Source of the DNA: Bryum argenteum
Lineage: Eukaryota; Streptophyta; Bryopsida; Bryales; Bryaceae
Direction of reading: 5' to 3'
Length of the DNA stretch: 64,000 nt
NCBI GenBank assembly: GCA_037043015.1
Contig: CM073321.1
Coordinates: 39,452,420-39,516,419 of the forward strand
In this document: positions 6,848-30,308 of the stretch, piece after piece
Layout of the letters: every line of letters begins with the position of its first letter
Numbering within the stretch: position 1 is the stretch's first letter
Translations under genes and position numbers: made by a program
Notes under the pieces: generated by a model
Told to the model about the DNA's origin: nothing
The model's input: the letters and a program-made list of their open reading frames with translations, nothing else
Databases searched by the model: none

Positions 6848-6875
6848 AACACGTAATTCATTAAAATGGGAATAT
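6848..6875 (+). repeat. Left terminal inverted repeat of the 23.5-kb element
   Basis: AACACGTAATTCATTA followed by AAATGGGAATAT. It pairs with 30281-30308 on the other strand and is preceded by CTCA. Confidence 0.85.
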
Positions 6876-7764
6876 TCAAATTATCATCAAATAACATATT
6901 TTGTTAAAGTGAGAATATTTCTATTATCATCGACCTAAATCCCACAAAAAGGACTTCAGCTCGACCTAAAGTGCGAAATAAGAAACTCAAAACTCTCTAA
7001 TATAAGAAAAACATCCCATTAAAACAAGAAACTCAACTATATTGAGAACATATATTTGAAATGGTCAAATCACACTCCATATTCAATCTAAAAAGAATAG
7101 CACATCAGTACGGAAAACACATTAAAATGAGTAATCATCACAATATCAAATATTACATATAGTTCCAAAGATACAATTCTATTTAAAATATCAGTTACAA
7201 TACAGTGCTACTACAAAAATAATTACACCAATCTACTTATCTGATTCTGCCTAGAACGAGAAAGCTCTAAACAACTTCAACGTAATTGAACTTAAAACCA
7301 ATTCGTGGAAAAATTATGGACGAGCTCTTGCCCACTTTGTCCTCCATAATAGCTAAAGCCGCGATTGACTATTTAGGTCGACGTGACCTAAATACCAATG
7401 TCTTCAGTGATCAAAATGCTTATTCTTCCTCCACTTCAAAACCCAGAATACTTTGTTGCTCATATCCACTCTGTCCTCCATAATAGCTAAAGCCTCAATT
7501 GACTATTTAGGTCGACGTGACCTAAATACCAATGTCTTGAGTGATCAAACAATTTTATTCATCCTCGACCTCAAAACGCAGAATACTTTGTTTCATGATA
7601 GTTACCTGTTGCTCAGATATTGAGATTGTTGAACGTTGAGATCCAACTTTGGCACTCGATTTCCATGCTGTAAAAATAGTACCAGCATAAAGCCAGACCG
7701 GGTCATGGCTGGGATCAAAAACACATTTAAAATTCTTTTGTGTGTCCTAGCCGACATAGGTATC
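6876..7764. other. Left flank inside the 23.5-kb element, with two 21-nt palindromes
   Basis: AT-rich and without a clear gene. A near-identical stretch of about 83 bp occurs twice (7337-7419 and 7465-7548). Each copy holds a 21-nt inverted repeat, TTTAGGTCG N3 TGACCTAAA, at 7372-7392 and 7506-7526. Half-sites GACCTAAA occur near 6928 and 6961. The motif is the same as in the central arrays. Confidence 0.65.
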
Positions 7765-10489
7765 TTAAACAAGAGCGCGCTTGCTAAAAGGTTTAAAAAA
7801 TTGAAATTGAATACATCCCGGATTGTTGCGATCTACATCGAAATCAGTCAAATCCCGCGCAATCCAAAAGGGTCGAGCATCTCCATCTGCAGGACGTAAA
7901 GCCAAGAAGTAGCCAGCATAAACATCTCGACCAACGCGAAATGACTCTCTTGGTTTATCACACAATCGGCCAATAAAATGGGGGTCTTGCCCATATTCCT
8001 CGCGTAATTCGCCAGTGTTCAGATATTCTCGAATCAACGGTACTCGAGACAAAGGCCAACATCCATTCTTCAAAGTAGAAGAAACCTCCATGGGCACCAA
8101 CAATAAATCATTGACTGCACGCCAATATCGTACAACGGAATCATGTCGTCGACGAAACTCTCCTGACAAGTCTTGGGCACATGAAGTTTCCCACAACTTA
8201 ATGAAACCTGATATACCTTTCACAATTTCATCGATATTCTTCATAGGAATTGACGCTAGAGGTTTCATTTCTCCCGTAGGCAATAGAGGCATACCAGTAA
8301 TAGAATTCTCTTTCCACAATTTGATTCCTTCACTAGTCGATGGAAGCCACTCATTGTCAGAACATAACATCTTGTACTTCATTATGGGCCACCCGTTGTC
8401 ATGTTTGAAAAATTTAAATTGTTGCCCTTCCGGATGACCAACAAGAACTTCGTCTTTAGAAGCAATGAAATCCTTGATATATCCTTTAAAATCGGGAATC
8501 TCCTCAATCAAATGCGGAATAACTGGAAGTGCCTCAGCATCCATGAACGATTTCATCAGAAGAGGAATCGTCAAATAGTTGTTCTCCTTTAAAATCATAC
8601 TCCAACGTCCAAACAGAGCGTCAATATCTTCGTGAGTATGTCCAACTAAAAGAAAATTGACGTAATTTCACGGAAAACGCCCATATGTACCAGAAGGGAC
8701 TAAAAACAAAACATAAACCGATTTTTGTTATCGGAGGCGGCATTGTCAAGTTGCACATGTAAAACTGGAGGAAGGGATTCCGTAGCTCCTGATGACTCAC
8801 TCTCAGGCAAAAGAGAGTTCAAACAAGCATCTTTTCCGACAAGCAATGCCTCAAACAAAGGATGCGTTCCAGATCCAACAAACAATGACTTGGAATGTGA
8901 TATCGGGAACTCCTTCTAAATCCCGCAGAAGCTTCAAAATAGATCCAACAGTGTGATTGCAATCACTCGGATAAATGTCAAGTCCATAGTGAGCATAACG
9001 AACATCGCAATGCCCGTGAGCAATCATTCCCGTCACAGCAATAGGAAGTTTCATAAGTGCATCATTTGTTTTTGTTTTGTGTGAGAACAAAGGACAAGCC
9101 GTTTTTGCATGATCCATTTTGTCGTGGATAATGCAAAAAACATCTTTGGGTCTCTGAATAGATAAAGAGCGGTTTGTATAATAATACTCACGATGTGTTC
9201 GCTGATGGTCCAAGTGCAGTTTAAGCTTTTTGATCCACATGTTCTCTTCACTTGAATCTGGCACCATGGACTTGATCATGGTCTCAAGTTTATCACACGT
9301 TGCACATCGCGCAAAATTGTCTCCGGGTGCTTTCTTCGAATACTCGGAGAATATTGTTCGCCTAATCTTGCTAAGAGTACTTTGCGCGATGAATTTCAGC
9401 CCCAACCTCTCATTAATAAGATTGATATCTGGGATTGAATCTTTCCATTTGAAGGAGGAAGGCAATGACCGTGATACTACTTTGAGTCCATTACTCAACA
9501 TCTTGGCTTTGTGCGGCATATGATCAGCTGCGTTGTCGATTAACACTTTAAGCGTTGCAGCAGCTTGCTTCACATGAAGTCGTGGTTTCTTGGAGCCAAC
9601 ATTCCCGTGATGTCGGCCCGTAGACCAGCAGCCGCCTCTGCTTTCTTCCTGTAAAACATTGTAGGAGGAACTCCAGTAATATTCTGCCATGCTCGAGCAA
9701 AAATATCAATACCTTCCGTTGTAACCATCGTACTCCCGTCAGCAGTTTTATGAAATCGATGATGTACATCAATCTTAAAGTGCGCCTTGAACTTAAAATC
9801 TGAAGACTCGTACATCTGCTTTCTCAAGGTCAGAATCTTTTGGCGAGGGAACGGCTCACAGCAATTTTTACTACAACACTTCATACTTGCAACCAAATTG
9901 ACAGACTCTACGGTCAATAGTTGCTCTTCCCTCCGAGTTCTGTGGATCTTCGGATGTCTTTCTCCCAAAGTATACGGACGAACTCCTTTCCTCTTCGGTT
10001 GATCACGAGCATAAACTGCAATATTGTATTGCTCGCGATGCAAATGATTAAGTAATGACCAACCGTCATGAATGGCGTGGCTAAGATCCCATTTTAATGA
10101 CTGAAATATTGTATCAAAAGGCAGGAACTCTAAATCCCAGCACTTTACGATCTGAACAACTACTTGATCATCTCTCAAAGGCTCGTCATTGGAGCCCAGT
10201 ACACAATCAGACCCCACACTTTGACAAATACCCTCTGCAACAATGGCACCTCCAGGATTCAATAGTGTCACAAATTTGGTTATCCATTTGCATCTTGGGA
10301 GTTTGGGACAATCCTTCAATCGCTCAGGTAGAACGAACTCAACATCTTCCAAATCCTAATAACCAAAAAACAATTATGTTAAACAAGGAACCACCATAGA
10401 AGTCGATGGAAACAAAGCCGTGAAGATTACAATACCTCTGAAAAAAGACCTCGATTGTCCCAGTCGTCATCGGACGCACTACTCGCCAT
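7765..10489 (-). pseudogene. DUF7869-like presumed transposase of the 23.5-kb element
   Basis: Start chosen at ATG 10489: exon 1 encodes MASSASDDDWDNRGLFSE, a GTATTG donor follows at 10435, and a TTATTAG acceptor leads into DLEDVEFVLPERL at 10355. The product has a Cys-rich MKCCSKNCCEPF block and FARCATCDKLE. Next come the family's three acidic motifs: CIIHDKMDHAKTACP (about 9130), LHVQLDNAASDNKN (about 8740) and VGHTHEDIDALFGRWS (about 8620). The C-terminal part has GYFLALRPADGDARPFWIA. I know these motifs from the DUF7869 family, multicopy in invertebrates and plants, probably with an RNase H-like fold; transposase function is inferred from position inside a TIR element. About four frame changes or stops (near 9600, 8870, 8698, 8650) make it broken unless some are tiny introns. 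Confidence 0.7.
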
Positions 10490-10739
10490 GTAAAGCAGTC
10501 ACACTCTGATTATAGCAACGTGAATATGCTATACAACATTACAAAAGACTCAAATAACGTTTAGTGGAAATGAACACGCAATAATGAATCCTCGGAACAT
10601 GCTGAGAAAAACCTAGGCAAGTAGTATTTAGCTCGACTGGACTTAATATCCTACCTGGTATACTAGTTTATAAATAAGCATTTGACATCAAATAGGAACA
10701 ATCTAAACCTTCAGACTGTGGACATAGCTCGAAACAATA

Positions 10740-11704
10740 ACTTAAACAAATACTGTGCGTTTAGGAGGCATCGACCTAAACAGATCGCGTTTACCAGGCA
10801 GCGATCTAAACACTGCATTACGCAGACAGCGACCTAACCACTGCATCTATTTGGGATCGACCTAAACACTGAGTTAAGCAGATAGCGACCTAACCACTGC
10901 CTGTAGATGGGATCAACTTGAAAATGCATGTTTAGCAGGCAGCGACCTAAATATTGTGCGTTTAGCAAACAGCGATGAACAGGCAGAGACCTACACAGTG
11001 CGCTTAGCAGGCAGGGACCTAATCAATGATTGTATAGCAGACAGAGACCAAAGCACTGATCGTTAAAAGGGAGCGACCTGAACACTGCGTTCGGTTGGAG
11101 GTGACAGGAATAGTGCGTTTAGCAGGCAGCGACCTAAACACTCTAAGATACACAATATAAGTTTAACAGGCATCGATATACACACAGTGTGCTTACCTGG
11201 CAGAGACCTTAACACTAAGTTAAACAGGCATCGAAGTATACACCGTGAATTTACAAGGCACCGGCCTAATATCTGTGCATTAAGCAGGTAGCGACCTAAA
11301 CACACTGCGTTTAGCAGACATTGACCAAGACTGTGCGATTAGCAGAGAACGACCTAAACAATGTGCGTTTAGCAGACAGCGACCTAAACAATGTGCGTTT
11401 AGCAGACAACGACCTAAACAATGTGCGTTTAGCAGACAGCGACCTAAACAGTGTGCGTTTAGCAGACAGCGACCTAGACAATGTGCGTTTAGCAGACAGC
11501 GACCTAAACAGTGCGATTAGCAGACAGCGACCTAAACAATGTGCGTTTAGCAGACAGCGACCTAACACACTATGCGTTTAGCAGACATTGACCTAAAACT
11601 CCGTTAAGATGGGAGAGACCTAACCATTGTGCGTTTATCAAGTAGCGACCTAAACACTGCTTTAAACAGGCATCAATGTATACACTGTGCGCTTAGCGTG
11701 TAGC
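10740..11704 (-). repeat. 30-bp palindromic array, left arm part 1
   Basis: About 30 units, most regular at 11330-11570, where the period is exactly 30 bp (GTGCGTTTAGCAGACAGCGA then CCTAAACAAT). Each unit has TTTAG and CTAAA placed as ends of a 21-nt imperfect inverted repeat. The period is a multiple of three, so spurious reading frames with 10-residue repeats cross it. The array continues at 15087 after the LTR-like insertion and reappears inverted at 21790-22835. Confidence 0.9.
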
Positions 11705-11967
11705 GACCTTGTCGGATGCCATGTATTCACTTTATCTTCCCTTACACATTTATTGGTGTAAAACCCGTGTTCAGGTGACTCGTGTATCGTTCCAGGGATT
11801 CTGTGAAGTGACCAAGACAACTAGTGCTAAAACAACCAAACCCACAAACGTTTCTAGTCCCAACTTATGTTTTAGCCTTGCAGGGCAAGGGTATCCCTTT
11901 GCAAGAGGGGATGCACAAAGACTCTTTCCCTTATGTTTACCGTGGCAGAAACTTCCACACTTAGACT

Positions 11968-11995
11968 CTACTCACACACACACACACACACTAAG
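11968..11995. repeat. (CA)n microsatellite
   Basis: A run of CA dinucleotides (ACTCACACACACACACACAC...) inside the LTR-like insertion. Confidence 0.85.
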
Positions 11996-12653
11996 GCACA
12001 CATTACGTCCTCACAACTAATCCGTCCTATCCGTCCAAACTAGCAGGTCACGCAGGCCGTCCTGGTTACCCTATCACCCTTACTACAATGACAGACTCCA
12101 AGAGCTCCGAATCCGGCTAGAAGACGTCTACACGTATTCTGGTCACGTACTGTGCTTGATCCGTCCTCTGAGACTACAGAGGAACCCAAGTCTGTGGGAG
12201 CTGGAGGCCGGATTGGAATCCGTCCTCACACACTATACTCCCAGACCCTCCCAGACCGTAAGTGTTTACCACAGCAGTTTCCCTCTCTCAGACACCTAGA
12301 CCAGTTCAAGACACAAGGCACTCAAGAATACGCCCAACCCGACTTCAACTCCACAGAAACGATCTAACAAAGAATCCGGATTCCTAACTCCCAACTCACA
12401 ACACACAAGGTAGATCCGGCTTTCCAAGCACTCAACTGAAAAGGAGACAGGGAAATGATCACACCGAATATGCGCATAAGAAGGTTTGATTAACACTCAA
12501 GCAAGGAATGTTTAGGTGGCCAAAACTCCCACCTATAAGTACTTCTAAGTCAACGACTTAGATACCTAACTGGATCACTATACTGGCCTAGGACGGATAC
12601 CAATCCGACCTCCTAACCCTGGCCGTCCTCTGACTGGCGGCCTCTAAGACGTC

Positions 12654-14550
12654 CTACCTCTTCCTTCGCGAACTAACACCGTGCTTCGGCCGCTTTAGTG
12701 GCGTCGCTGCGATACGTCCTGCCTTCACTCTCTTGCCCGTATCCGTTATCACGTACTCGTCCTCGCTGGAGTTGGTCTCGTCCCCGCTCTTCAACTCTTC
12801 CTCTTCGGAGTGCTCGAGGCCGATGTCGTGAAGCTTCTGGGCCCCGGGAGACTTCTCGTATTCCTCGGCCATGAGCTTCCTCTTCGCGGTGCGCGTGTTT
12901 TTGGCCGGAGAGTCTGCTGGGGCGGGTGCGTCCGTCTCCGTCTTCACCTTCGCCTTGCCCTTCGTGTCGGTCGGACTGGAGGGCCCAGCATCCGTCCTTG
13001 TTGGATCCGGCCGCGGGGTCTTGGCCGGAGTAGAAGTGAAGGCCGGCATGACTACCTCCTTCATCTGCTCCCGGACGGCGTCGAGGAGCACTTTGACTTC
13101 CGCGTTGCTCTTCTCAACTTTCGTGGCGTACGTCTTCGCCGCCAAGAGGAACTTCTTGAAGGTCTCCGCCTTGAACACTTCCGACTCCAGGATTCCGGCC
13201 TCGAACAGGTTCGCCTTCTGCAGTACGTCGGCCGGAACCTCGCAGATTTCGACAAGCTTTACGACCTGCTCGTTTGCCGTGATTACGGCCTGCCTTCCGA
13301 CCAGGAGTTCCTCCTCCCTTCTTCTGACCGTCTCGCGAAGACGTCTATTCTCCAGGATCACCTTGGTCACTTGCTTCTCCATCTGTCGAAACTGCTCCGC
13401 GTCCGGCTTGGATTCCCACTTCGCCTTGACCTCCAGCAACGTCTTCACTCCAAATTCTTGGCATAGTTTTGCCAGCAGTCCTTGGTAAAAGAAATACTGG
13501 CACCTGGCTTCTGTGAAGTGGTGCCATGCTCGCCTCATGGGATCCGGGTGATTGGCGGACGGACCGAGAGGTGGGGAAGTCTGCAGGGTCGTTCGGATTC
13601 ATGGGGTTCTCCCAATCGGGCCGTAACTTCCCCTTCATCCACCGGCCTCAAGGTCGTCCCTCCTCGATCGAGTTCCGGCCTCGGTCGGTTCCTTGGGAGG
13701 GGACGGGGACGGAAGGATGATTACCTCTGGACCCGTCCGCGGTGGGGTGGCCTCCGGAGCCGGCTCTTCTGGCGCGTCTGGTGGGGCGTCCCCGACGCCC
13801 CGATCCGACCTCGTCTTCCTCCTCGTCCGAGTAGACACGGCCTTGCTATCCGCGCTCTCCTCCGACTCGAACACTCCGTTGTTTTGCGACGACAGCGCGA
13901 TCTCGTTGTTCGACTCCTCCTCCTCCTCGTCAAGACCTCCTCCTTAGCATGCGGTGGTAAAGAAAAGGAGTAATAGGGCTAGGACGGGTTTTACCTACAT
14001 TCGCCATGAGCCGGGCGACCAAGTCGCGGATGATCATCCCCAATCTACCTCCCGTTCGCGTAGGGACCCCGGGACGGTGTTGGCCACCAGACGGTAATGC
14101 GGTGCGGCTTCTCTCCGTGGATGATCGGCGCCAAGAATTTGATGATGGCGCGCTCCCTCGGATTCTTGCAATCCTCTATCGAGTAGCCGTTGTTCTTGTG
14201 CGGATCCCCGTGGAACGCCTTTCTTCGCCCATTTGTGTTTCCGGCCGCACAACCCTACTCCGTTGTTTACGGTCGGCCGTAAATGACTCTCGATGGTCGG
14301 CCGTCCGGGAAGCGGCTTCCTCTAACCGTCCCCTCGAATCGGTTTGCACGCCGACCTTGATTTCGCGCACCATCTCTCGCGTCGCGCAAACCCCAAGGCG
14401 CGTGTCAGCAGGCGGCTAAGCCCATCCTCTCGAGGTCTTCCGTCAAGGACTTCTTCTCGTCCTCCTCGATCGGGATACATGGCGACACGAGTTTGATGGA
14501 GATCTTCAGCTCCTCCTGCTCCTGAGCGGAAGTGGACGCTGTTCCTGCCA
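12654..14550 (-). pseudogene. Gag-like coiled-coil coding region of the LTR-like insertion, fossil
   Basis: The largest piece (13538-12654) encodes a coiled coil (RQMEKQVTKVILENRRLRET...) followed by a low-complexity tail rich in Pro, Lys, Asp and Glu with KRPKHGVSSRRKR at the end. Upstream, toward 14550, are further same-strand pieces. Base composition is much more GC-rich than the surroundings. I call it gag-like only from position and composition; several breaks are present. Confidence 0.4.
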
Positions 14551-15086
14551 TTGGAAAGTAGTGCGACAAGAAATACAAGGTCGCCGGGTGAGATCGGCCA
14601 GTGGGCGGATCGAGCTAAGGGACGGAAAGGAGAAGACGGAAGGCGAGGCGCAAAACGACAAGGAGCGCAGAAGCGAGGAGGCGGTGGCGACGACAAGGGC
14701 GGACGGGTGGCCTTTTATCGAGGGGGCCGGAGTTAAGTCCGACCATCATGACATGGTCCGCCGCCATCATTGTCCTTTCCGTACGGAGTCGCCTTCTAGA
14801 TTTCTCGCCATTATTAAATTCTTCGCCACTCCGTCCTTCACCTACCATCATAACTCCTAATCCGTCCTTTGACAGCACGTCCTAGCCGTACGGGTACAGA
14901 GTACGGATTGGCAAATCCGTCCTTCTTAACACAAACTAGATTTTAACTAATTCGTTTATTTGTAAAAACGTAATTGCCTTATAGTATACGGCTTAGCAAA
15001 TACATAGGTCGGATTCTAGACACTATACTTATTCTTAATGCGCATTAGGACTTAATGGCCAAATATCGAAAAAACGGGGTCCGACA

Positions 15087-15311
15087 GACCTAAAAATTGT
15101 GCGTTGTACAGGCAGCTACGTTAGCCTGTGCGTTTAGCAGGATGCTACCTAAATCTGTGCGTTTAGCAGGCTGCTACCTAAATCTGTGCGTTTAGCAGGC
15201 TGCGACCTAAAAGCTGTGCGTTTAGCTCGTGAAATAGGAATTACCTGTTTTTGCGACCTAAATGCACAGGCATCGACCTAAATGCACAGGCATCGACCTA
15301 AATGCACACTG
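15087..15311 (-). repeat. 30-bp palindromic array, left arm part 2, with 20-bp units
   Basis: This continues the array cut at 11705. It ends with three 20-bp half-site units (CGACCTAAATGCACAGGCAT). Read in reverse complement, 15090-15490 aligns in order with 21690-22040: GGTATGC, then CCTCTCCGCnCGATT, then the 20-bp units, then CCTATTTCACGAGCTAAACG, then the 30-bp units. This shows a long inverted repeat. Confidence 0.85.
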
Positions 15312-15860
15312 TGATTCTTGAATTTGTAGTGATGTAAAATGAATCGCGCGGAGAGGTCGCAAATAGCAAGATGAAATAACAATGCAATTGCGCATGGAAT
15401 GGTCGCAAATAGCAAGATGAAATAACGATGCAATTGCGCAATGGCATACCTGATAGAGCGCACAAACACACCCTAGAGCACTGACGCGATAAGTGGCAGC
15501 AGCAACGAAGCGCGAAGTGGCAGCAGCAACGCCTGCTCGAGAGCGGAGCACTGGCCTCTGCGGAGCAACGCTGGGCTGTGCGGAGCGAGGCACTGCGAAG
15601 GAGCGGAGCTGGCTTGCTCGGCGGCTGGCGGAGCGCTGGCTGGGGGCTAGCTGGCGGAGCGCTGGCTGGGGGCTGGCTGGCGGAGCGAGCCGGCTAGGGC
15701 CCCTGGCTGGCGGGAAACTCTAAATCGTAAATGGGCGGGAAGCTTGCGCCAACGGCCGGCAGGCTGCCTGCGCCTTGATGGCGGAGTGGGGCAGCTGCCC
15801 GGCCTGCCCTCCGCGACGTGGCGACGTGGGGCTGCTGCCCGGGGGTGCCCGCTGCCCCAA
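15312..15860. repeat. Left GC-rich spacer of the inverted repeat
   Basis: 15312-15480 holds two tandem copies of a roughly 66-bp stretch (GAGTGGTCGCAAATAGCAAGATGAAATAACnATGCAATTGCGC-like). From 15490 it is strongly GC-rich, with GCTGGCTGGGGGCTAGCTGG-type tandem units at 15610-15690. Frames across it are low-complexity; no gene is supported. Confidence 0.6.
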
Positions 15861-16264: not shown

Positions 16265-17645
16265 TCAACAATTTTAATCCTACAGTATCTCTGTTAGAAA
16301 GTATTAGTACTAATATTTGTAGGTTCTTGAACGTAATTTTCCAAATACTTCGATTAGAATAATTTGCTTAAAATACATGTACACAAAAATTAGAATACTA
16401 CATTTAAAATGTTTGAATCCTAATTATTCTTATACTACTTCACCAAATTTAATAAGAATTTTGTTATAAGTTCATACTTATTTAGTAAATACTAACTTTA
16501 GTATACCTTACTTTAAATATAATAAAATAATATCTACGATTGAAAAGCAAATTATTTAGTATTATTTTGATCCAAAAAATGATGTTACAAATATTATATC
16601 TAAGGATAGAACGGTTTTTAAGGCTTTAAATAAAGTGTAAAAGCTTAAAATATTTATTTTTATAACTTTTTGAAAACGAAATCATTCATATAACTTTTAA
16701 ATAAATAAAAAAATCAGAAAAAGAATTCATCTAGTATAGTTAATTTTAATATAGAGTTTAGCTTATTACGTATCAATTCATATAAGTTTTTTATAGATGT
16801 AACATTTACATGTTTTATTTATAAAAATCATATTTATTCACAAAAGATAATAGTAATAATTCAATGTATATTTCAAATAAATCAACCATTTATAAATTAT
16901 CAAACTGATCATAAATTTTTCTATAAAATCATTAAAACTAAACCTAAAAACAACTGTAAATTATTTTAAAAAAAAATAGTATTTTACTTTAAATAAATTT
17001 AAGAACAAATTATATTATATTTTAACAAACTAAAATTATTCTTAAATTTTAGATAAATTTATATTATTCATATACAAATGACAAAATAAATAATAAACAA
17101 ACTAAGTAAACATATTTTAAAACAACCAATTTTTGAGATAAATATGTATTTTATATTAAACTAGATATACATGTCATTCGTATTGTACGTTCAACTTATT
17201 ATACGAGATAATATTATGTTAATATATACTTATCTAATTGCAGTTTACTATCACCCACATATTTTACACATTCAATCAAGTTTGTCTCTGCAAAGCTATA
17301 GTAAAGGTGCACGGGGTTTTACTGTCTAGCCGTTGGCACTCTGCATCATCACGAAGAGTTCAATTTCACTGAGTCCATGTTGGTGAAAGCAGGTCATTTA
17401 TTTTATTCCTATCATTAGTATTACTTGTTTTATGACGTTATATTAGATTTTAACTTTTATTTCTGAGAATTAAATAACTAAATAAACATTTGAATATTTA
17501 AGAAAATCTTTATGTGAGAAATTGAACCTATTCTATGCTTATGTCTTGAATTATTTGATCTTGTGAAATCATAAAAATAAGATTTCTGAAAACTAATTAA
17601 GGAAATGAGTTTTTTAGTACTGAAGCTTTTTAAGCTTAAACCTAA

Positions 17646-17683
17646 AACACGTAATTCGTTAGAATGGGAATATTCAGATTATC
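17646..17683 (+). repeat. Internal copy of the element's terminal repeat
   Basis: AACACGTAATTCGTTAGAAT and the following GGGAATATTCAGATTATC match 6848-6885 with few differences and in the same orientation. It may mark the end of an older, related element inside the core. Confidence 0.65.
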
Positions 17684-20600
17684 TAATTGATGAAAATTGC
17701 GGTATCTGCGCATTCGGACTTTGTTTTGAATGGCGCTTGCAAAGTAAAAAAGACTCAGCCTCGTTATGCGCCCTTTATCCTTAGCAATGCCTTGAGAACG
17801 TAGTGTGTCCAGCGTTTTAAGCGCAGGGCTGCCTATAGCGACGACGGTGCTAATTCTCTTCGTATTGTAAAGAAATAGTATAAAGCATTGTTATAAAGCA
17901 ATGGTATAAAGCAACTGCTTACATTCCTTAGAGGAAGTGAAAGACGACACTCGACTTGTGTTGAGTTTCAATTTGGTGCGAAAAGATTGCAATAAGTCTT
18001 ATACATTTTGCATTCTTCTATGTTGACGAGTGTTGAAACATTGCTACAGCTATGATAAGAAGCTGTAAAATCGGCAAATACAAAGTTTTTTTCCACCAAG
18101 TTTGGGATTGTGTTTCTTTCTGAACTAATACGCCTAGGCGAATTGCAATTTTGAAACATAAGAAGATAAAGAATACCAATTTTCTTTATTACATTTTAAA
18201 TTCTGAATTTATCATTACTTAAACAACGTTTTTGCTTGATATACACCGTTGTTCATTTGATATACACTGTTGCTTATTTGATATATACCGTTTTTTGTTT
18301 GTTATACATTGTCGCATATAAAACTTAAAAAAAAATTAATAAGTCGTGTTCACGAAAAGAGAAAATGTAATTTACCAGTATTTTTTAATTAAAAACCTAT
18401 TAAAATTGTCAATGCTGACCAATATATTCTATATAGACTAAATGTTGATTAATTTTGCAATTCAATTTAACTAACTAGAATATCGAAGAAATGTAAGATT
18501 GAAATATCCAAACTTTTATGTTATAAATAAGTTATTTTACTCTTATTAACTAAGATAAATATAATTTGATTTAAATTTCAAACAAAGAAGAAAAATAGAA
18601 AATTAAACAATAAGAAAAATTATAAATTTTGATTAAATCAAAAGTTAGCATGTATAAATTACAAAAATTAATATATAAAAACATACCAGTATTAGATCTA
18701 TATGGTTCTGATCAAAATAAACAAAATAAACAGTACAAAATAAACAAAATGTTTAAAAATAATCGAAAAATAGATTAATGAAATGATGATAAAAATACCA
18801 TTATTTGGCTAAGTAAATATCATCTTATGAATATTATATAAACAATTTTTTTTTTTTTGAAATGCGAAAAATATTATTGACGGAATCGCATCTATATGTA
18901 ATGTTATGAAAGCAATTTATATAACTAACAATAATAAATAAGTAAGAAATGTAAATGTAATAACTCTTTATATATTCATAAAATATTAGAAAAATTTAAT
19001 AAATGTGTTATTTTTGTATGTTTTTTATTAAACTTTATTTATGTATTTTATTTTATACCAAACATTTAAAACATTAAGAAAACATTCTACTGTAGAAATG
19101 TAATTTCTAATATATTAGTAATAACTAAGAAAGTTGTGTTCCAGCTAATAATGACTATATAGAAATGATATTACTTTGACAAAAATAAACGAATAACTCA
19201 ACTATATGTAATTATTTATTTGCAATGATGAGATTTTGAATGATTAAAACTTGAGAAGTTAGAACAAGAACTTACATGTTTTACGCAATATGAAAAACAT
19301 AATTATCATAAAGTATTGTCTTAAAGATTCTATAATAATCGTAAATTTTGAATTGTATGTAACCGAAGAATGTTTCTAAATTAAGTTCCATTAGTTTATA
19401 ATTAGTTAAGATGTGTATATTTTTTTAAATTAATCTAAAATGTTAGTAATTGTAAATAGTTATTATTAGCTAAAATCAGTTCTTATATGAATAAATCGAA
19501 ATAAAATACAAGTAATTAATGTGAGACCTTCATAATTTTTGTGAAATATAACAAAATATTACAATAATAAAACCTTGTTGTGTTTGTGATTGAAAAGTAA
19601 TTCGGAACAATATAGCAAATCAAACAGGGATCATTAAATTGATATTTTGAAGTTAACTTTTAAACAGCTGAGTCTAGTTTTAGCAAAATAGCACATTTTC
19701 ATAAAAATCGTCTTAGATAAAAATCATTAGAACCTATTAGAAGTTCAATCGTACAAACTTGTTATAGACTTATTGAAGATCGTGTGGACCAAAATTTGGT
19801 GACTTATAAATTGTAAGATCAAACATATAAATATTTAAAATTAACTGCAAAATTATTTATATACACTTGGAGGTAAAATTGCTACTAATATACATATTGC
19901 ATTATAATAATCACCAACGAGAAAAAGTTGATCCTATTCATTTTTACGAGTCCTTTACTCAAGAAAAGTACATCCAAACAATTTCTTGGCTGAAATAAAA
20001 GCCATGCAATGGTAAAAACTACCAAACATTTTACAAAAAAAATATAGCTAAAAGTTAGACTCTTACCTATCAATTTAATGAATTATGTTCAAAAAAATTT
20101 CGATCTTATTTAAGTTTCTATCACTTAGACTACACAGTAATTGAGGGTCATCAAAAAAAATTAAATATTGAATTCTAAATATTGAAATTCTAAATATTAA
20201 GTTGAATTCTAAACATTGAAATACTATTTTTAATTTCACATAATTGTTTGCAATGGTAAAGCAAAGGGTTGGAAACCCAAAAACAAGAGTTGTCTTCCCT
20301 TAATTGCATACCTTTAATTCATACTTTATTGTATGCACTTGCAAATTTTAGAACACGAACTAAACCTGATTAATAACCAAATCGGGTATGAATTTAATTT
20401 TCGTAGTGAATAATTAGAAACAATTATCTTCCACTAAAATCACATATTAAATGATAAAATAGTAATAAAGTAGAAGTAAATGATGGGAACTCATAATATT
20501 TACGTCAAATATTCTCACAATAATAAAACTTTGTCCTGTTTGTGATAGAAGGCTAATTCGGAACAATCTATCAAATCAATTATAGTCTTTCGAATTGAAT

Positions 20601-20904: not shown

Positions 20905-21789
20905 CATTGTATGGGCAGCGGGCATCACGGAGCAGCTTGGGCACTGGGCGCGCCACGCTTGCCCCATCACGGACGGGCAAGGCGGGCACCCGGGGGCACC
21001 CAGGACAATACACGCCCATTACCCACGGGCGTGAGCGCAGAGAGGCGATCGGGCGGCCGCGGCGGCCTTAGCGCGCCGCCGAAGCCCGTGGCGGCGCCAG
21101 CTGCGCCGCCACTCGTCATGGTTTTCGGGCAACCGGCGGGGTCGCCGACATCTTCCGCCAAGGCTCACCGCCGACACTCTCGCTCGCTTTGCTGTGCTTC
21201 CTCGTTGCGCTCGTTTGCTGTTCTTCCTCGTTGCGCTCACTTTGTTGCTCGTTGCGCTCTTTGATTGCCGCTTGCGATTGCAGCTCTGCCCTATTGCGCC
21301 GCCGTTTGCAGCACTGCCATTTTGCGCCGCCGTTTGCAGCACTGCCATTTTGCGCCGCCGTTTGCAGCACTGCCATTTTGCGCCGATCGCCGGTGTTTTC
21401 GTGGTGGTTTTTGTCGCGTTGCCCTGCAGTACTTCCGCAACTCTGCATTTCTTTTCCATTTCGTTTTTTTGTTGCTTTTGCTGGACGCTCGTTGGCGCAC
21501 TCGTTCTCCGCGGTCCTGGTGGTGGGTTTCCTGCATTTCTATTATCATCTTTGCAATTTTGGATTTTCGCTTGAGCTCGGGTTTTTTCATTCAGATTTGA
21601 TTAGGTCGTGCTGTGTGTTTAACGCTGATTTCTGGCTAGGGTATCTGCGCATTCGGACTGCCCTAGCGCTTCTGTGTGCTCTCTCAATCTTATTCAGGTA
21701 TGCAATTTCTTTACAGCATTGCAATTTGAATTTGATGTTGCATTTTGCAACCTCTCCGCTCGATTAATTTTCCATAACTAGAGTAACAT
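20905..21789. repeat. Right GC-rich spacer, with 28-bp triplicate
   Basis: GC-rich to about 21430. A 28-bp unit starting GCGCCGCCGTTTGCAGCACT occurs three times in perfect tandem near 21297-21381. The following 21640-21789 aligns with the reverse complement of 15312-15490. The 20-mer GGTATCTGCGCATTCGGACT at about 21640 is identical to one at about 17700. Open frames here are low-complexity and not supported as genes. Confidence 0.6.
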
Positions 21790-22835
21790 TGTGCATTTAG
21801 GTCGATGGGTGTGCATTTAGGTCGATGGGTGTGCATTTAGGTCGATGGATGTGCATTTAGGTCGATTGGTGTGCATTTAGGTCGATGGGTGTGCATTTAG
21901 GTCGATGGATGTGCATTTAGGTCGCAAAATGAGAAATTTCCTATTTCACGAGCTAAACGCACATCTTTTAGGTGGAAATTTCTGGTATCTCCCATTTCAC
22001 GAGCTAAACGCACAGCTTTTAGGTAGCAGCCTCCTAAACGCACACTTTTAGGTAGCTGCCTCCTAAACGCACACTTTTTGGGTAGCTGCTTCCTAAACGC
22101 ACACTTTTTAGGTAGCTATGTCCTAATTGCCCACTTTTTAGGTAGCTGCCTCCTAATTGCACACTTTTTAGGTAGCTGCCTCCTGAACGCACACTTTTAA
22201 GGTAACTGCCTCCTAAACGCACACTTTCTAGGTAGCTGCCTCCTAATTGCACACTATTTAGGTAGTTGCCTTCTAAAACGCATGACTATCACGTAGTCGC
22301 CGCTTAATCCCTTTCGCTTTTAGGTAGTCGCTTTAAACGCACGCACAGCTGTATGGTAGCTAATTGCTAAACGCACACCTTATATGTACCTGCTTTCTAA
22401 ACGAGCAGCTTTTAGGTAGCACCCTGCTAAATGCACATTTTTTAGGTAGTTGCCTCCTTAACGCACAGCCCGTACGTAGCTTCCTCCTAAACGCTCAGAT
22501 GTTAGGTACATGCCTTCTGAACGCATATCTTTTAGGTATTTGGCTGCTTAACGCATATCTTTTAGGTAGGTAGCTGCCTGCTAAACGAACATATTTTAGG
22601 TAGCTGCCTGCTAAACGCACATCTTTTAGGTAGTTGCCTCCTTAACGCACAGCCCGTACGTAGCTTCCTCCTAAACGCTCAGATGTTAGGTACATGCCTT
22701 CTGAACGCATATCTTTTAGGTATTTGGCTGCTTAACGCATATCTTTTAGGTAGGTAGCTGCCTGCTAAACGAACATATTTTAGGTAGCTGCCTGCTAAAC
22801 GCACATCTTTTAGGTTGATGCCTGCTAAACGCACA
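21790..22835 (+). repeat. 30-bp palindromic array, right arm (inverted)
   Basis: It starts with seven 20-bp half-site units (GTGCATTTAGGTCGATGGGT) and continues with about 30 units of 30 bp (TTTTAGGTAGCTGCCTCCTA then AACGCACA), inverted relative to 10740-15311. Each 30-bp unit keeps a 21-nt TTTAGG...CCTAAA or TTTAGG...GCTAAA frame. A 184-bp stretch starting at 22441 is repeated apparently perfectly from 22625. Confidence 0.9.
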
Positions 22836-24215
22836 TCTCGTTGCTTCTTTACAATCAAGTACCGTTTGACCTTAGTACTATTGGAGGATACCTGGAGCCC
22901 CTTGTTGTCGAGCCTACAGATGTACTTGCCTCTGCTGTCGCGGACGTCGAGCAATACGGCATGATGCGGACCCCTAAGCCAAATTCCATTCTGTCGTGGT
23001 CCTTGTACCCGAAGGAGAAAGGAATATTCCACCTGTTTCAACAGTCTGGAACTAATCCTGCCCATCTCCCATTCTGCAACGACACTTTCATTTACGCGGT
23101 GAACTATGAGGAGTCACACATTTTCATCACATTGAAGGTGACCTACGTTCGTGGATTCGTCTTCACCATCGTCTTTCCCTCGAATGAAGTGCGATACTCG
23201 CACGACACTATCAAGGCTTACATGGTCGGGAAGACGGAGGCGGGGCTCTTGGACCACATCGTCAGTGGCATACTGAATGTTAGCTCTCCAAAGAAATTTG
23301 TGCAGACCTACCAGCAGTATTGCATGCATATCTGGAGTGCTCTGAACGACTTCAAAAGAAGCAAGGCGAAACGCAAAGCACCCGCAAGGAAGGCACTCAT
23401 GCCTGCTTTTGAGGAGGGTTCCGGGTCAGGAACAGCGCGGTCTGGTATGGCCTCCATCGAGGTAACTCCTACGCCTTCGAGGAAACGCCGCAACTCGAAC
23501 CCATCGCCAGTAAAGCAGCCGAAAAGAAAATCAAGAGTAGTTTGGCAGGCAGTACAATTACGTATATGAATCCTTCAATCAAGCATGCCACAACCGAGAA
23601 GGACATCGACTACGAAGCTGCAAGTAAGACTCTCAAGGACTTCTGGGAAAACTGCGAGCCTTGTTACGTTTTTGGCAAGGACTCGGCTCCTGTCAATGTG
23701 GACATCGATCTCCTCAAGAAAGCTGATGCGCGGTTCATCGTCCGAAAGCTTGAGCCTGCTGGAGTTGTCCATTACAAGAATATCCTGACAAATTCGATCG
23801 ATTTGAATTCAAGGCAGACCATCATCATCATGCCCATCATCATTGTGGCTCCTCCGACTTGGGACTGGAATGCACTACTCGAGTCAAAGTGCAACTTCCG
23901 TGTGATCGATGGGCAGCATGATGTCGAAGCTGCGAAGGAGCTTATCAAGGAGGCTAGAATCTCCGAGGATAACATTACCGCCTTGAAGACCTGGCGGGCT
24001 CATATTGTTTGGCATTCAGACGCGAAGATGATCATGGACGTGTCTATCATGGCGAACAAGACCAACAACGCGAGAACACTCACACCATCGTGGCCACAAA
24101 CATATTGGCCGCGAGAAGTGTTTGGATAGAATACGGGTCGCCCGCAAAGTGTGGTGCAAAGCCCAAGTCTGGTCGGGAAACAATCGAGCAAGCTATCGCT
24201 CGAAAGAACCATGAA

Positions 24216-24420
24216 GTAAGTCTTGCATTTTCTTATAAATTTATCTGCTTGATTTGTGGCGTTTAGGTCGATGCGACCTAAATTTCAGGTGTTTAGGTTG
24301 ATGCGAGCTAAATTCTGTGCGTTTAGCTAGACTCGACCTAAATTCCGTGCGTTTAGCTGGACTCGAGCTAAATGATCATCCCGTCATGTTCTTGAAATGA
24401 TGTCGATCTTTCTTTTTCAG
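24216..24420 (+). other. Intron of gene A holding four palindromes at 30-bp spacing
   Basis: Donor GTAAGT after NHE codons, acceptor TTTCTTTTTCAG. Four 21-nt TTTAG...CTAAA units start at 24262, 24292, 24322 and 24352, exactly the 30-bp spacing of the large arrays. The first is TTTAGGTCG N3 CGACCTAAA. Confidence 0.8.
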
Positions 24421-25755
24421 GATTTTGAAGAGGCCATGGTGAAACGCTTCATGAGTATAAAGACGAAATCCCTCGACAAGCTCTTGAAGCCAGCGGACCT
24501 CCTCAACGAATTGGAAATCATCACCGCTTCTGAGGAAGTATACCAGCTGTGGTCCAACGTTATCATTGCAAACGGGCTGGGAGAATTGATCGACCCCGAC
24601 ACTTGCGAGCCTTTCAACCGGGCTCATGACTAGGAGACCAAATCGAAGGAATTCGTCTTGACTCGCGATACCTTCAGGCAAATGTCTGGATTTGAGGAGC
24701 ACGACTTCAAGACACTAGCGCTTCATCTTCTGAATAGGACTCCGGACCGGGACCTTCCGTATCCCAAGGTGTCCTTGAAGAAACCGAAGCTGAACTACTG
24801 GGAGTGCGTTGCAATAAAGGTTTGGCTAGAGAAGCGCAAGAGGAAGAAATGCGTTGCAAGAGAGTTCCACAACATCAAGCCATCACTGGGATTATTCGAC
24901 AGTGCTGACAAGTTTGCGGTTGAAAAGTGGAAGCTTTTCAAGTTCGAATACAACGTAAATCGGCAGACCATGTCGATGCTTCTTTCCGTGCCCGGGGACG
25001 TGTTCTTCAGCGACTACCGGCAGAAGAGGACAAAGAACAAGAGTTCTGAAGAGATCTCCGAGTACGCTGCGGAGTTCTTCAAGAAGTTCTTGGAAGTGAA
25101 AGGGGATTTTTTGCTGCCAACCCCGGAACTTCATACAAGAATGTTTGATGCTGAGGCGTTTCAGTTCGCTGGCTGGGATAATGGGTATGCTTGGGACGAT
25201 GGAAGATGCGCGTTGGACATTGTCGACCTCAGATGCGTCCCAGGCCATAGTAGCAAAGTGGACGATATTTCGAATGTGTACTTCAAGGACTTCCTGAATG
25301 CTTGGAAGGATTCCGTGTATGACCCCTCCATCAAGAATCCTGACGTCTGGCTTATTATTACGGAGACTACCGATCGTCATTGCCAGGCCGTTGTATATTT
25401 CAACGCTTTCAAGGATTCGTACAAGTCGAAGGCAGTTCACTACGCTCCCGCGAACAATGAGCGTCTCAACGGTATCTTGGAGGGGAAGGTCGTGGACAAA
25501 CACCGCATTCCACTCTTGTTTCTTCTGAAAAGAACCCACCAGGTAACGGAGTTGTTCGATGAAATTCCGGAGGTATTCTATGCCCCGGAGGTACCCCTGT
25601 ATCATAAGCCAGGAGCTTACAGGGAGTTCGATTTCTGCATCAACGACAACAAGTTGCGCTTGGCGTTTTACATTCGCGTCCTGCAAATGTTTACAGTTCC
25701 AGGAAACAGATTTCTGTCCATCATGGGTGGAACTAAGCCCATGCTTGCAGGAATT

Positions 25756-26011
25756 GTGAGCTTGTCATTCCTTTGGGCGTTTAGGTCGATGCCACCTAAA
25801 TGCATGTTTTTGTCAAGTTCGCATCTCTCTTCCGTTTTTCTTGTCAGTTTAATTCGTCTCAATCTAAATTACACTAGATTTACTTGGCGTTCTTCAGACT
25901 TGACAGTGATTTGGGCGTTTAGGTCGATGCCACCTAAATGTCTGTTTTTTCAAGTTCCCATCTGCTCTTCTGTTCTTCTTAGTGAACTTACTTTGTGTTT
26001 TCGTTTCGCAG
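25756..26011 (+). other. Intron of gene A holding two palindromes
   Basis: GTGAGC donor, TTTCGCAG acceptor, in phase. Two 21-nt units TTTAGGTCG N4 CACCTAAA start at 25780 and 25918, within a repeated stretch. Confidence 0.75.
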
Positions 26012-26159
26012 ATGCTTAATCTACTGACTCATAATGTCTACGAGGACGAAGATGAGTTGGAGAAGTACGAAGTCGTCCGTGACAGTAGTTTCAATCTGAA
26101 TCCGAACGACTTCTGTGTGGACGCCTATGTCAATCCAGATTGGGTTCATGGCCCGAAGC

Positions 26160-26560
26160 CTGGGTCCTCGCCTCAGGCTGGGGTTACCGGATCTGCTCGT
26201 CGTGGACGTGGGGAGGCATCGTCATCTGGTGGTCGTGCTCGACGTGGTAAGGTATCCTCTCATGCTGTTGCTCCTGATGGCGAACCATCGTCTGCTGCTG
26301 GTGGGGATCCGTCGTCTGCTGGTGGTGGCGATCCGTCGTCTGCTGGTGGTGGCGATCCCTCGTCTGCTGGTGTTGCTCGTGGTGGTCGTTCATCGTCTGG
26401 TGGCCGTGCTCGTGGTAGTAATCGGTCGTCTAGTGGCCGTGCTCGTGGTAGTAATCCGTCGTCTGGTGGCGCTCCTTTATCCGGTGCTTGTGGTGGGCGT
26501 GGTCGTGGTCGTGGTCGCGGTCGCGCATCTAGTGGGCCTTCTGGCGTGCGGGCTTTAAGC
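26160..26560 (+). repeat. Gly/Ser/Arg-rich repeat coding segment of gene A
   Basis: Encodes repeated GGGDPSSA, RARGSN and GRGRGRGR units. RGG-like stretches often bind nucleic acids; that role is inferred. Confidence 0.7.
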
Positions 26561-26685
26561 ATTGAGCCCATACAAAGCATCGATCCTGTTTACAGGAACC
26601 TGCTGATAGATATTGGCCCCGATGTTGACGTTGATGAAGTTCTTCCATTGGTCCAGCGTCGCGGCTCCTTGGCCCGCGGTGGGGG

Positions 26686-26706
26686 TTTAGGTCGCATCAA
26701 CCTAAA
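26686..26706 (+). repeat. 21-nt palindrome in an exon of gene A
   Basis: TTTAGGTCG followed by CATCAACCTAAA, arms TTTAGGT/ACCTAAA, translated as GLGRINLN. A similar site, TTTAGCTCC followed by CGTCAACCTAAA, lies in coding sequence at 29804-29824 (NLAPVNLN). Confidence 0.75.
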
Positions 26707-27929
26707 TCCCCCTACTCTCCTTGAGGAGACACTCGCCTCCACCGGGCTGCCTGAAACTCTCAGCGACGATGAAAATGAAGAAGACAACTCCGATTATCGT
26801 CGAGAGACCCGCACCAAGGCTGCAAATGATGTTTTTGGGTCTGGTTCGGAGGAGGACGTGGTTCTCGGGCAAGAGAGGTTGCCCAGAGATGCGCCTACTT
26901 CCGATAGTTCTGATGGAGAGAACGCCGAAGAGGGTGCCGAGGAGGGTACTGCAGGGTCTGACGAGGATAACAATATCGATCCCTCTCCTATGAATTTGGG
27001 AGATGATGTCGTATCCTCCCCGGCTCCTATGCAAGCCGGTTCGTCGGATCTAGCAGTTGCAAGAGAGCCATCCCCGCCTGCGCCACCTACAAGAGAATCA
27101 TCCCCGCCTCCGCCTTCTCTTGTCCTCGCATTACCTGCTCCTGCCCCTGTACGCGGACGGTACCTCCCTTTCTTGAAGAAGGGTGTTTGGAATAATCACG
27201 CTGACGACCCTGCTGAGAAGGTGGAGACTACATTTTTCGATTTCTCAGCTGAGCCGATTTCTCAGTGGGGATTCCCCTACGCCAGCAAAGGAGGCTGACG
27301 ATCCGCTTATCAATCTTGGTCTCGGTCCGCAAAAGAAGGGTGAATAAACTCAGAGTCGAATCGACGTTTGCAAATTTGGAGAACTCAAATTCCAGAGTTC
27401 TTGGCAATTTGAGTGATTTGAGGGTCTTGTTGACGCAGATAGCACAGGTGGCTCATCCCCTTGCCTCCTACAACCCCGTCAATCAGCCTACTTTGGCTAT
27501 CTGTGGGCCTTCGACTTCCACCAGCCAAGCGCCACCCCAACTCGCAGCACCTCTGAATCCGGCAGTTCCAGCCTGCATTCTTCCTGCTCCGGCTACGCCA
27601 GTACCCGACGTTGTTGTTGAGGAGATTATCAGTGACGCATCTCGTTCGGAAGCTGATATCGCCAAGCAGGATGAGAACGATGGCGTTCATCAGCTCGAGA
27701 CGAGCAGATGAAGATCTTCGTGATGGTGCTTCCTCACTCTTGGTGACCTCCGTTTCGGTTGATGCAGCCTCCGTGCATGAGGTTCCCCAGGGTAGTCATG
27801 ACTTGTAGGAAGATGGAGATAGAGCGGTACAGGGTGCCCCAATCTCCCTTGTCTCTGCGATCAACGAACTGGACTCAGTACCTGCAACTAATCCCACGGT
27901 GAGCTTCTTATCAATGGTTGCAAATGTTG

Positions 27930-27950
27930 TTTAGGTCGGGTCGACCTAAA
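27930..27950 (+). repeat. 21-nt palindrome in an intron of gene A
   Basis: TTTAGGTCG N3 CGACCTAAA, a perfect 9-bp-arm inverted repeat inside the intron 27899-28053. Confidence 0.85.
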
Positions 27951-28368
27951 TTTCTGTTTATCTTGTTGATGAGCATCTGCTCAAATTATTTCTCTGCTTG
28001 TATGATTTTTCATTTTGTAATAATTTTTTAAGCTGGTGCTCCTTGTTTTACAGGAGTCCGGCATTGAAGACGGCGAGTAGGTCTTACGAGTTAGTCTTCG
28101 AATTATTGGATGGTGTGCCACGATTGTAGATATTACCATGTAGTGACTCCCCATTCAATAAAATGAAGACTTTTTATTTTATCACTTGCGTCTGCACTGC
28201 GTCCGCGTCGTTCTCCCTCATTCTTGGCGCTAAATATCGTCATTCTTCTATCAGGCCGCGCCTCTGAGTACCTTATTCCGTCCGCTTGCCACCAGATCCC
28301 CCACCGACCACCTTGACCTGTGCGTCGGTGCGGTGGTCCGGTCCTCAATCACTCCGAGCAGTCATTTG

Positions 28369-29948
28369 CATGCTTCCGCATTTCACAAGGTAACACTCTT
28401 GTTTTAATATCATCCACTATTGTCATTGGTCGTGCTGCAGGCTAGATTGTCCAAATCTTCAAGCAAGACTTTCCCTACAACCCTCGGTCAACCCCTACCG
28501 CATGTGCCATCATCTAATGGACACCGGTCCATGCCCAAGTGGTTGAATGTGGTGTTGGAGTTGAACGGCGTCCTTTGTTCCACTACCCCTATGTCTCAAG
28601 CCCCATCCCAGTACCTTATTTTTCCTGATCCCAAACACCCTCCTGTTCTTTCCTCAACTATCCCCACCGTAGTTGCTGACACGGTAGTATATTGTCGTCC
28701 TGGACTTACCCAATTCCTGAATGTGTTAGACCGTTTCTGCCACATCCACGTTTGGAGTATCCTCCAACCTAAAGTAGTCGACGGTCTCTGCACCTTCCTT
28801 TTCTCTAGAACTGTTGCCGTTCCGCAAATCATACTGGCCTCAAACTCCTGCGATGGTCTCTTGCTGAAGAATTACACAACGGCCATGTACCCTGGCACGA
28901 CTAATCCTATCTTACTTAAATATCCACGTCGACGTCTCTTCACTAGAAGGGATGCTAATTTCAACGCCCAGAACTTTATTATGGTCGATAGCAATCCTGC
29001 GGCTTGTATGGTTGTTCCTCCACTGAACACTCTCTTTCTTGATCCTTGGGTCCATTCACATCTGGGTGCACCCTCAGACTCTTATCTACTGAAATTAATC
29101 CACGAGTTTTGTTTTGCCGTACATTTGAGAGGTCCGCAGAACTTCCGTCAAGTTATGACTAGTAGACCCTCTCACAATGACTTGTCCAAGGACTCGGAGT
29201 TGTACGGCATCATGTCTCGGAATTTGCCCTATGTGTGGAACCAGCTCCTACTAAATGGAAGAACCATGTCGTGATTACTTTCATTTACGGTATTGGTTAA
29301 AATTTGTTTTTTTTCTTTTTCCTTGACTCAGTGTTCTAATGTCTGGTCAGATCATCACCATTTTGTAGTCATGGATTTGCGAATTGCCACTTTCGATTGT
29401 TCTTGTGAGTCTACCATTAGAATGCCTTTTAAAGATTTAGTGTTTGTTTTTATTATATTCAGGTTTTCAGCGATGGACAACAAAGTGCCTCCCTGGATGA
29501 TATTCCCCCAATGGGTCCCTCTACGATGTCAGGTCCCTCTTACAATAGTGAGGGGTCGAGGACACTCTCGGAGTTGGAGCGAGGGCGGTACATTTATCTT
29601 GCTCGAGATGACGCATCTGCTGTGGATTACACCAAAGACGTCATTGATGATGATGATGATGATGATGTTGTTGATAGTTACGTCAATGTACGGAGTCGAA
29701 TTGTGGCGGCTTCCCGTGATAACATCCCGGCTACGGCGACAGGCACCGTGGCACGGATTACTGATACCTCAAGTCGTTCTACGGCCCTAGGTGTACCCTG
29801 CAATTTAGCTCCCGTCAACCTAAATCATCCTTTGCGAACTACAATCGCCCGTGTGGGACTATCCTTTGAAGGAGACTATCCCCGAGTTGTTGGGAAGCGT
29901 GACAGAAATGAGGCTTTTGGTGATCCACGTCCACGTAGTACTATTTAG
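28369..29948 (+). CDS. Degenerate FCP1/SCP-like HAD phosphatase gene
   Basis: A frame of 284 codons (to 29274) aligns in order with the NLI/FCP1 phosphatase fold: WLNVVLELNGVL at the DxDGTL position, VVYCRPGLTQFLNVL like the RPGLxEFL block, WSILQP where the Ser/Thr motif should be, and NFIMVDSNPAACMVVPPLN like the DNSPxxF...N block. Both nucleophile-site Asp residues are replaced (E and N), so a phosphatase activity is unlikely. A second piece (29474-29948), after a TTCAG acceptor, encodes an acidic D-rich segment and a basic end; whether it is the same gene is uncertain. A likely intron lies at 28391-28439, and AATAAA near 30013. The start codon is unclear. It sits directly downstream of gene A on the same strand. 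Confidence 0.5.
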
Positions 29949-30280
29949 ATTTTTCTGGGCTTTACTTTAGGAGGTCTACAATTACACCAATAATTTGTTT
30001 TCTGGATTTTTCAATCAATAAACCTTTCTCCTTTAGTAAATTTGTGTTAATCATTGATTGTATTTTGAATGAATTCTTCTTTTTGATTAAGTATAGTTTG
30101 TATATTCATTACTCCGTCTTTTTATTTTGAGAATATTCTGCTATATTGATAAAACGTGCTCTTTATTTTGAGAATACTTCTCTCTATATTGATAAACTTA
30201 CATTATTTGGTAATGTATTTGGCTTGGTGCAGTCTAAGTGCGATTGTATTACCGTAAATCGTATTTACCATTTTGTGTAT

Positions 30281-30308
30281 ATATTCCCATTATAATGAAT
30301 TACGTGTT
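30281..30308 (-). repeat. Right terminal inverted repeat of the 23.5-kb element
   Basis: Ends in TAATGAATTACGTGTT, the exact reverse complement of the left end, followed by CTCA at 30309-30312. Confidence 0.85.

Follow-up and report, generated by a model that had tools for sequence, protein, structure and literature searches.

Transposons with terminal inverted repeats (TIRs) in plants are mostly a few kilobases long, and the giant transposons of eukaryotes, such as Starships, Polintons and Teratorn, span tens of kilobases and carry accessory genes. In En/Spm (CACTA) elements, which have CACTA ends and a 3-bp target duplication, the element-encoded regulator TnpA binds repeated motifs of its own element. 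Sola elements are described as having 4-bp duplications, a DDD transposase and inverted ends, and as being present in Physcomitrella; they measure mostly 2–9 kb, with some above 15 kb (PMC10741241). Sola1 elements of bivalves average 5.4 kb (PMC10294476), and MULE, Tc1/Mariner and Sola elements are mostly a few kilobases long, the MULE duplications being 7–12 bp (PMC10741241). VANC, an anti-silencing protein encoded by VANDAL elements in Arabidopsis, is associated with short family-specific motifs in introns, intergenic DNA and terminal non-coding DNA (PMC5735166); these motifs are amplified as tandem repeats and differ between related families (PMC5735166, PMC10398659). Here we describe a 23.46-kb TIR element in a 64-kb stretch of the moss Bryum argenteum (assembly GCA_037043015.1, contig CM073321.1, 39,452,420–39,516,419; hereafter the window) and compare it with these systems.

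The reading that we favour, with modest confidence, is that of a giant TIR transposon with a DDD transposase of the family DUF7869, probably a Sola element, in which an element-encoded protein, most likely the product of a second gene (called P here), would read a repeated palindrome in the manner of VANC.

Boundaries and copies of the element

The element occupies exactly positions 6848–30308 of the window. The initial annotation had reported inverted ends that are perfect over 16 bp and extend to 28 bp with one mismatch, flanked by CTCA on both sides. We recovered all of this: the left TIR, AACACGTAATTCATTA, begins at 6848, the right TIR ends at 30308, the two match over 16 bp and, after the mismatch, over 11 more, and each is adjoined by CTCA. 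The flanking satellite had also been said to rejoin upon removal of the element. When the flanks were fused with one CTCA kept, they indeed aligned over the junction to satellite units of the same window, far above chance (best alignment: 272 columns, 85% identity, three gaps, none of them at the junction). The array that the element entered has a 118–120-bp unit (window 6615–6847 and 30309–32295) and higher-order periods of ~240 and ~438 bp.

Does the element recur elsewhere? The genome (258.8 Mb in 25 contigs, 11 of these 7–44 Mb long) was searched with 121 bp of the left end and 123 bp of the right end; the best 40 of 351 first-look candidates were scored for the former and the best 40 of 124 for the latter. 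Seventeen of the 40 left ends formed same-strand pairs with a right end within 100 kb, and 23 ends of each kind were unpaired. Perfect 4-bp duplications bound 15 of the 17 pairs, with 14 distinct sequences among them (CTCA, TTTG, TTAA, CAAA, TTTA, AAAA, TGTT, ATAT, CAAA, TTCA, TTGC, TCAT, CTAC, ACAA and AAAT). These 15 span 21.0–57.5 kb, compact copies measuring ~21–25 kb. The 57.5-kb pair, C9:7527147-7584633, has matching AAAT at its bounds and a broken P exon inside; it is presumably swollen by nested insertions. Neither of the other two pairs, both on the largest contig (C1, 44 Mb), has a matching duplication: C1:33809341-33828584 (GTAG/TGGT) and the 66-kb pair C1:4121208-4187536 (ATAT/TGGT), the latter of which may not be a single element.

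An alignment of the window copy with seven others, of which one is partial, showed the same blocks in the same order; the longer blocks are mostly 75–97% identical. Further copies with these ends and this gene set thus exist, whereas the initial annotation would have taken the lack of a second copy with these ends as refuting its proposal. Perfect 4-bp duplications also flank one copy each of two related groups, subfamily B and lineage C (see below); the copies counted above constitute subfamily A. Misassembly or chance ends are ruled out by copies with different matching duplications, and a satellite artefact is ruled out as well: the satellite is the target, and the short flanks of other copies differ by eye. 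The window copy itself is damaged, with five stops in the transposase gene, frame breaks in that gene and in P, and a nested 3.4-kb insertion. We conclude that the feature is a real, bounded TIR DNA transposon and one decayed copy of a multi-copy moss family.

The DUF7869 gene and the affiliation of the element

The gene that had been called DUF7869-like matches that Pfam family with E=4.8e-42, and no other Pfam name was obtained for its product. By sequence, the protein has a conserved acidic core. The modelled core came nearest to Mos1 and retroviral integrases, albeit with middling Z scores; by this model the protein would have a DDE/D-type RNase H arrangement, and the gene is likely to be the transposase of the element. 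Homologues that are ~50% identical exist in Ceratodon purpureus and Physcomitrium patens. DUF7869, an uncharacterised family, would thereby gain a probable function.

The initial annotation stated that the content of the element fits no transposon superfamily known to it and that the superfamily may be undescribed. One part of that assessment stands, as the extra genes are unusual, real and conserved. The other part is weakened: Sola, as published, agrees with the element in its moss host, its 4-bp duplication, the length of its TIRs, the modelled acidic RNase H arrangement of its transposase and its size, given that some Sola elements exceed 15 kb (PMC10741241). We term the element Sola-like, and probably Sola, a label that denotes agreement with the published description. 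An undescribed superfamily, defined by DUF7869 and separate from Sola, would suit the lack of any further Pfam name, the lack of a significant relative in the PDB when the protein was searched by sequence, and a gene content that fits no superfamily known to us. Set against the likenesses to Sola just enumerated, however, it strikes us as doubtful. We found no description of these giant moss elements in the open-licence literature that was searched, and the word Sola is absent from a paper on Physcomitrium transposable elements (PMC7466625) and from one on giant transposons (PMC6431247).

Two further genes in a repeated order

Besides the transposase gene, the element carries P, which has at least three long exons, and a gene with a NIF (FCP1/HAD-like) domain. 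The order and orientation that the three genes have in subfamily A recur in a single B copy and in a single, distant element of lineage C. The B transposase is 72–77% identical to that of A, and the termini are nearly the same; the B copy (~24 kb, with inverted ends and an ATGC duplication) is 51, 58 and 34% identical to A in the P exons, 60% in NIF and 39% in ORF5, a possible second NIF exon. The C element, 17.8 kb long, has 26-bp perfect inverted ends that start with AACAC and an ATAA duplication. Its identities to A are 55% for the transposase over 425 residues (lower elsewhere), 25 and 32% for P, and 29% for NIF; it was found by choosing one NIF match, C1:31743536, and was read outside the stretch 31732001-31734000. 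A scored P exon lies within 60 kb on the expected side of 27 of the 51 transposase loci that were scored (23 of 32 in A; 4 of 19 in B, which is undercounted because the P list came from an A query). Under random placement, the mean was 2.0 and the highest count 7 over 500 trials.

Ratios of nonsynonymous to synonymous substitution (dN/dS) were obtained by comparing each copy with one reference copy; against B, silent sites were saturated. P exons 1 and 2 yielded 0.16–0.28, below most transposase values (0.20–0.40, six copies), and by this measure they evolve under constraint. P exon 3 was looser (0.42–0.69). For NIF, six copies gave 0.22–0.57 and a broken one 0.73; the values for ORF5 ranged from 0.32 to 1.44.

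What might these two proteins be? The HAD-like gene of the initial annotation was borne out, as its NIF match reaches 40.1 bits against a Pfam cut-off of 21.8 (E=3.8e-10). The catalytic motif of NIF/FCP1-type phosphatases is DxDx(T/V); the corresponding stretch deviates from it, reading LELNG in all A copies in which it could be located (seven of eight), LELDG in B and LDLNG in C. The label ParB-like/methyltransferase-like, given to P, comes down to motif resemblance. The ParB likeness of ORF1 consists of a single match to PHROG_1033 (E=0.08 over 21 residues), with none in Pfam at E<=1, and the methyltransferase likeness was seen by eye, there being no such match in Pfam, PHROGs, NCBIfam or the PDB. 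A search with 946 residues of P gave no match at E<=0.001 among 7995 scored candidates, which were gathered with words from the first 500 residues. A three-sequence profile of P exon 2 retrieved seven proteins among 3678 candidates; they are 57–66% identical, and none has a Pfam domain. Against phage records, the same exon aligned at one place with 23% identity (E=7), which is not meaningful, and its fold model (pLDDT 33) was not used.

NIF-domain frames form a many-copy family in this genome, judging from the best 150 scored of 566 candidates; common lengths are ~221, 269, 277 and 291 amino acids, and most of the frames listed lack stops. Given so many copies, further lineages of the element may exist. 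At a second NIF locus, C2:18903257, no recognisable P exon was present in the 4 kb upstream, so that membership in a three-gene element is not established for every NIF copy. The extra genes could in principle be captured host genes that travel along fortuitously, in the manner of Pack-type elements: the NIF domain is widespread among eukaryotes, and some of the 150 scored loci, e.g. C8:13068195, resemble ordinary host genes. We consider such capture very improbable, however, in view of the common order in A, B and C, the constraint on P exons 1 and 2, and the many-copy state of the NIF family itself. P and NIF instead look like parts of the element, as opposed to random cargo. A long-lived lineage of 18–57-kb elements with this repeated three-gene order raises the question of the role of the extra genes.

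The family is unevenly distributed. C1 comprises 17% of the bases; it harbours 38 of the best 40 left ends and 31 of the best 40 right ends, 43 of the 51 scored transposases (14 of 19 for subfamily B alone), 69 of the 86 scored P exons and, counted by hand, 88 of the 150 scored NIF matches. These shares pertain to best-scoring candidates and are compared with the share of bases, not with gene density. The excess may reflect an insertion preference, slow loss, or a sex or repeat-rich chromosome; it is relevant to the ways in which such elements could shape individual chromosomes or be concealed in them.

The palindrome and its candidate reader

The 8-mers most enriched in the element are parts of TTTAGGTCG/CGACCTAAA, and the underlying unit in A and B is a 21-bp palindrome, TTTAG[GC]T-N7-A[GC]CTAAA. 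Of the half-sites in the window, 82 lie in the element and 9 in the remainder; for palindromes (spacings of 6–12 allowed), the counts are 19, of which 11 have the strict form, and 0. As the initial annotation had it, inverted palindromic arrays surround an AT-rich core: in all eight copies examined, two inverted arrays of ~30-bp units flank this core, one upstream of each divergent gene. The window copy has further half-sites in the P introns and near both termini, and its right array appears to lie partly inside a P intron, judging from another copy (E31685p). Eight copies together have 509 half-sites and 71 strict palindromes, of which 35 and 16, respectively, are located in coding sequence, although this makes up 38% of the length.

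Subfamily B has the same form, with 18 palindromes in 9 kb of one locus (L073). In the one copy of lineage C, the palindrome is TTCAACTCGA-N-TCGAGTTGAA, which has the same build; its half-sites number 56 in 15.8 kb of the element, two of them in coding sequence, and 0 in 7.7 kb outside, and the strict A form was not present in the pieces of C that were read. The A/B and C palindromes are alike in length, spacing and much of the centre. Together with a variant in a contig termed L095, the two forms look like diverged versions of one site. This 4.3-kb contig, from a metagenome bin of uncultured Synechococcales, was the sole match of a pattern scan of prokaryotes. It has five palindromes (0.002 expected) beside a DUF7869 gene that is 48% identical over residues 26–934; because of this identity and the common palindrome, we regard it as probable moss contamination of a public cyanobacterial record.

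In the mechanism that we propose, the DUF7869 protein would be a DDE/D (DDD) cut-and-paste transposase that cuts at the AACAC ends and inserts the element with a 4-bp stagger, mostly at A/T-rich targets without a common sequence. An element-encoded protein, most likely that of P, would dimerise on the palindrome of the arrays, introns and termini and maintain expression of the element or keep it free of methylation, the part that VANC plays in VANDAL elements; palindrome and reader would change together between distant lineages (A/B vs. C). The NIF-like protein, with its altered catalytic motif, may be an adaptor that contacts the machinery of transcription or chromatin, which is the weakest step. 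By analogy with VANC, dimers of P on the palindrome may oppose silencing. The palindrome form common to A and B, where one form per lineage might be looked for, makes this mechanism somewhat less likely. We put forward only tentatively the wider proposition that mosses host giant transposons with an independently evolved VANC-like system, in which a new family, P, reads a 21-bp palindrome and the two change in concert.

The main rival to a palindrome read by P is that the transposase binds its own internal sites. The palindromes would then serve DUF7869 in a synaptic complex and in autoregulation, like those of TnpA in En/Spm, and P and NIF would be otherwise employed. This arrangement would accommodate the half-sites near both termini of the window copy as well as the internal ones, and the persistence of the palindrome beside the 48% identical DUF7869 gene of L095 (a contig too short to show whether P is present). 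On the other hand, the two central arrays and the P introns, far from the ends, account for 62 of the 82 half-sites of the window copy, and C retains the AACAC terminal bases yet carries another palindrome. We view this rival as possible, but on the unlikely side.

A plasmid- or virus-like, self-replicating element, with a ParB-like protein and arrays at the AT-rich core as a partition or origin module, is scarcely probable. The motif match to PHROG_1033 and the position of the arrays would fit it, as would two weak virus-named matches: Herpes_DNAp_acc, and a PHROG virion protein matched by one P homologue at E=0.37. These two matches are below cut-off or not significant, however. The former (E=0.00087; 18.8 bits, cut-off 25) involves an ORF at 12654-13538 (minus strand) of the nested insertion, outside the DNA of the family, and we take it to be low-complexity noise. 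The sites are, moreover, scattered in introns, and relatives of neither the transposase (70 stretches) nor P (55 stretches) turned up in pattern scans of viral contigs.

Coordinates of the element and its parts are compiled below. The nested insertion (3.38 kb), situated inside the left array, has the termini TGTCGGA/TCCGACA, and no internal direct repeats were found in it; it is perhaps a long solo LTR (long terminal repeat) or another TIR element. Outside the element, the window contains fragments of hAT-type transposases (DUF659, hAT dimerisation region) at 3075–4010 (minus) and 61560–62300 (plus).

Features of the element and its immediate flanks, in window coordinates
Feature	Position	Strand	Basis
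Target-site duplication CTCA, left	6844..6847	.	sequence read
Left TIR, 28 bp, 1 mismatch vs. right TIR	6848..6875	+	sequence; 40 scored genome matches
Subterminal half-sites and two palindromes TTTAGGT-N7-ACCTAAA (7372, 7506)	6933..7534	.	sequence
DUF7869 likely transposase, main exon, decayed (5 stops, frame breaks)	7690..10355	-	open frame in copy L017:1481-4147
Transposase D-containing motifs	9100-9126, 8721-8750, 8620-8646	-	sequence
Putative first transposase exon, ATG to GT; intron 10356-10435	10436..10489	-	read by eye
Left array, ~30-bp units, half-site CGACCTAAA, upstream of transposase gene; resumes 15088-15296 past nested insertion	10774..11648	-	sequence
Nested insertion, TG..CA ends, 5-bp duplication GACCT	11710..15086	.	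absent from 7 other copies; not family DNA
AT-rich core flanked by the inverted arrays, GC 0.238	16266..20038	.	blocks align in other copies
Right array, half-site TTTAGGT(C/A)G, upstream of P ORF1	21796..22830	+	sequence
P exon ORF1, ParB-like motif DGQHHVEAAK, frame breaks in window copy	22853..24215	+	sequence, PHROG match
P exon ORF2, methyltransferase-like by eye only	24400..25764	+	sequence
P exon ORF3, Ser/Gly/Pro-rich, fast evolving	26012..27702	+	sequence, dN/dS
NIF (FCP1/HAD-like) gene exon, acidic motif LELNG	28498..29271	+	Pfam PF03031 E=3.8e-10
ORF5, possible second NIF exon	29463..29945	+	sequence
Right TIR	30281..30308	-	sequence; 40 scored genome matches
Target-site duplication CTCA, right	30309..30312	.	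sequence read

If P binds the palindrome, it would represent a new family of sequence-specific DNA-binding proteins, and a VANC-like system, if real, could explain how elements of 20–50 kb multiply. Lineage-specific palindromes make it possible to test, directly and at low cost, whether transposons have a second anti-silencing system, outside Arabidopsis.

How does the element compare with known systems? Like Starships, Polintons and Teratorn, it extends over tens of kilobases and has accessory genes; it differs in that the scanned ORFs gave no significant recombinase, polymerase or capsid match. With En/Spm it would have in common a regulator that is encoded by the element and acts on the element's own repeated motifs, here as a proposal, but En/Spm has a 3-bp duplication and CACTA ends, and this element has 4 bp and AACAC ends. 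It resembles Sola in the 4-bp duplication, the probable DDD-type transposase, inverted ends and moss host; Sola elements are reported at mostly 2–9 kb, some above 15 kb (PMC10741241), whereas those described here measure 18–57 kb and have conserved extra genes and palindrome arrays. VANDAL elements differ in having a MULE-type transposase, the present ones having DUF7869 and a 4-bp duplication. The VANC motif is a 9-mer and the palindrome has 21 bp, and it is by the layout of the element that P is likened to VANC. That layout includes a family-specific motif in non-coding tandem repeats, of one form in A/B and another in C. As described for VANDAL and VANC (PMC5735166), a lineage-specific short motif is both arrayed in tandem and dispersed in non-coding DNA, and the element encodes a second protein, some parts of which are conserved and others variable.

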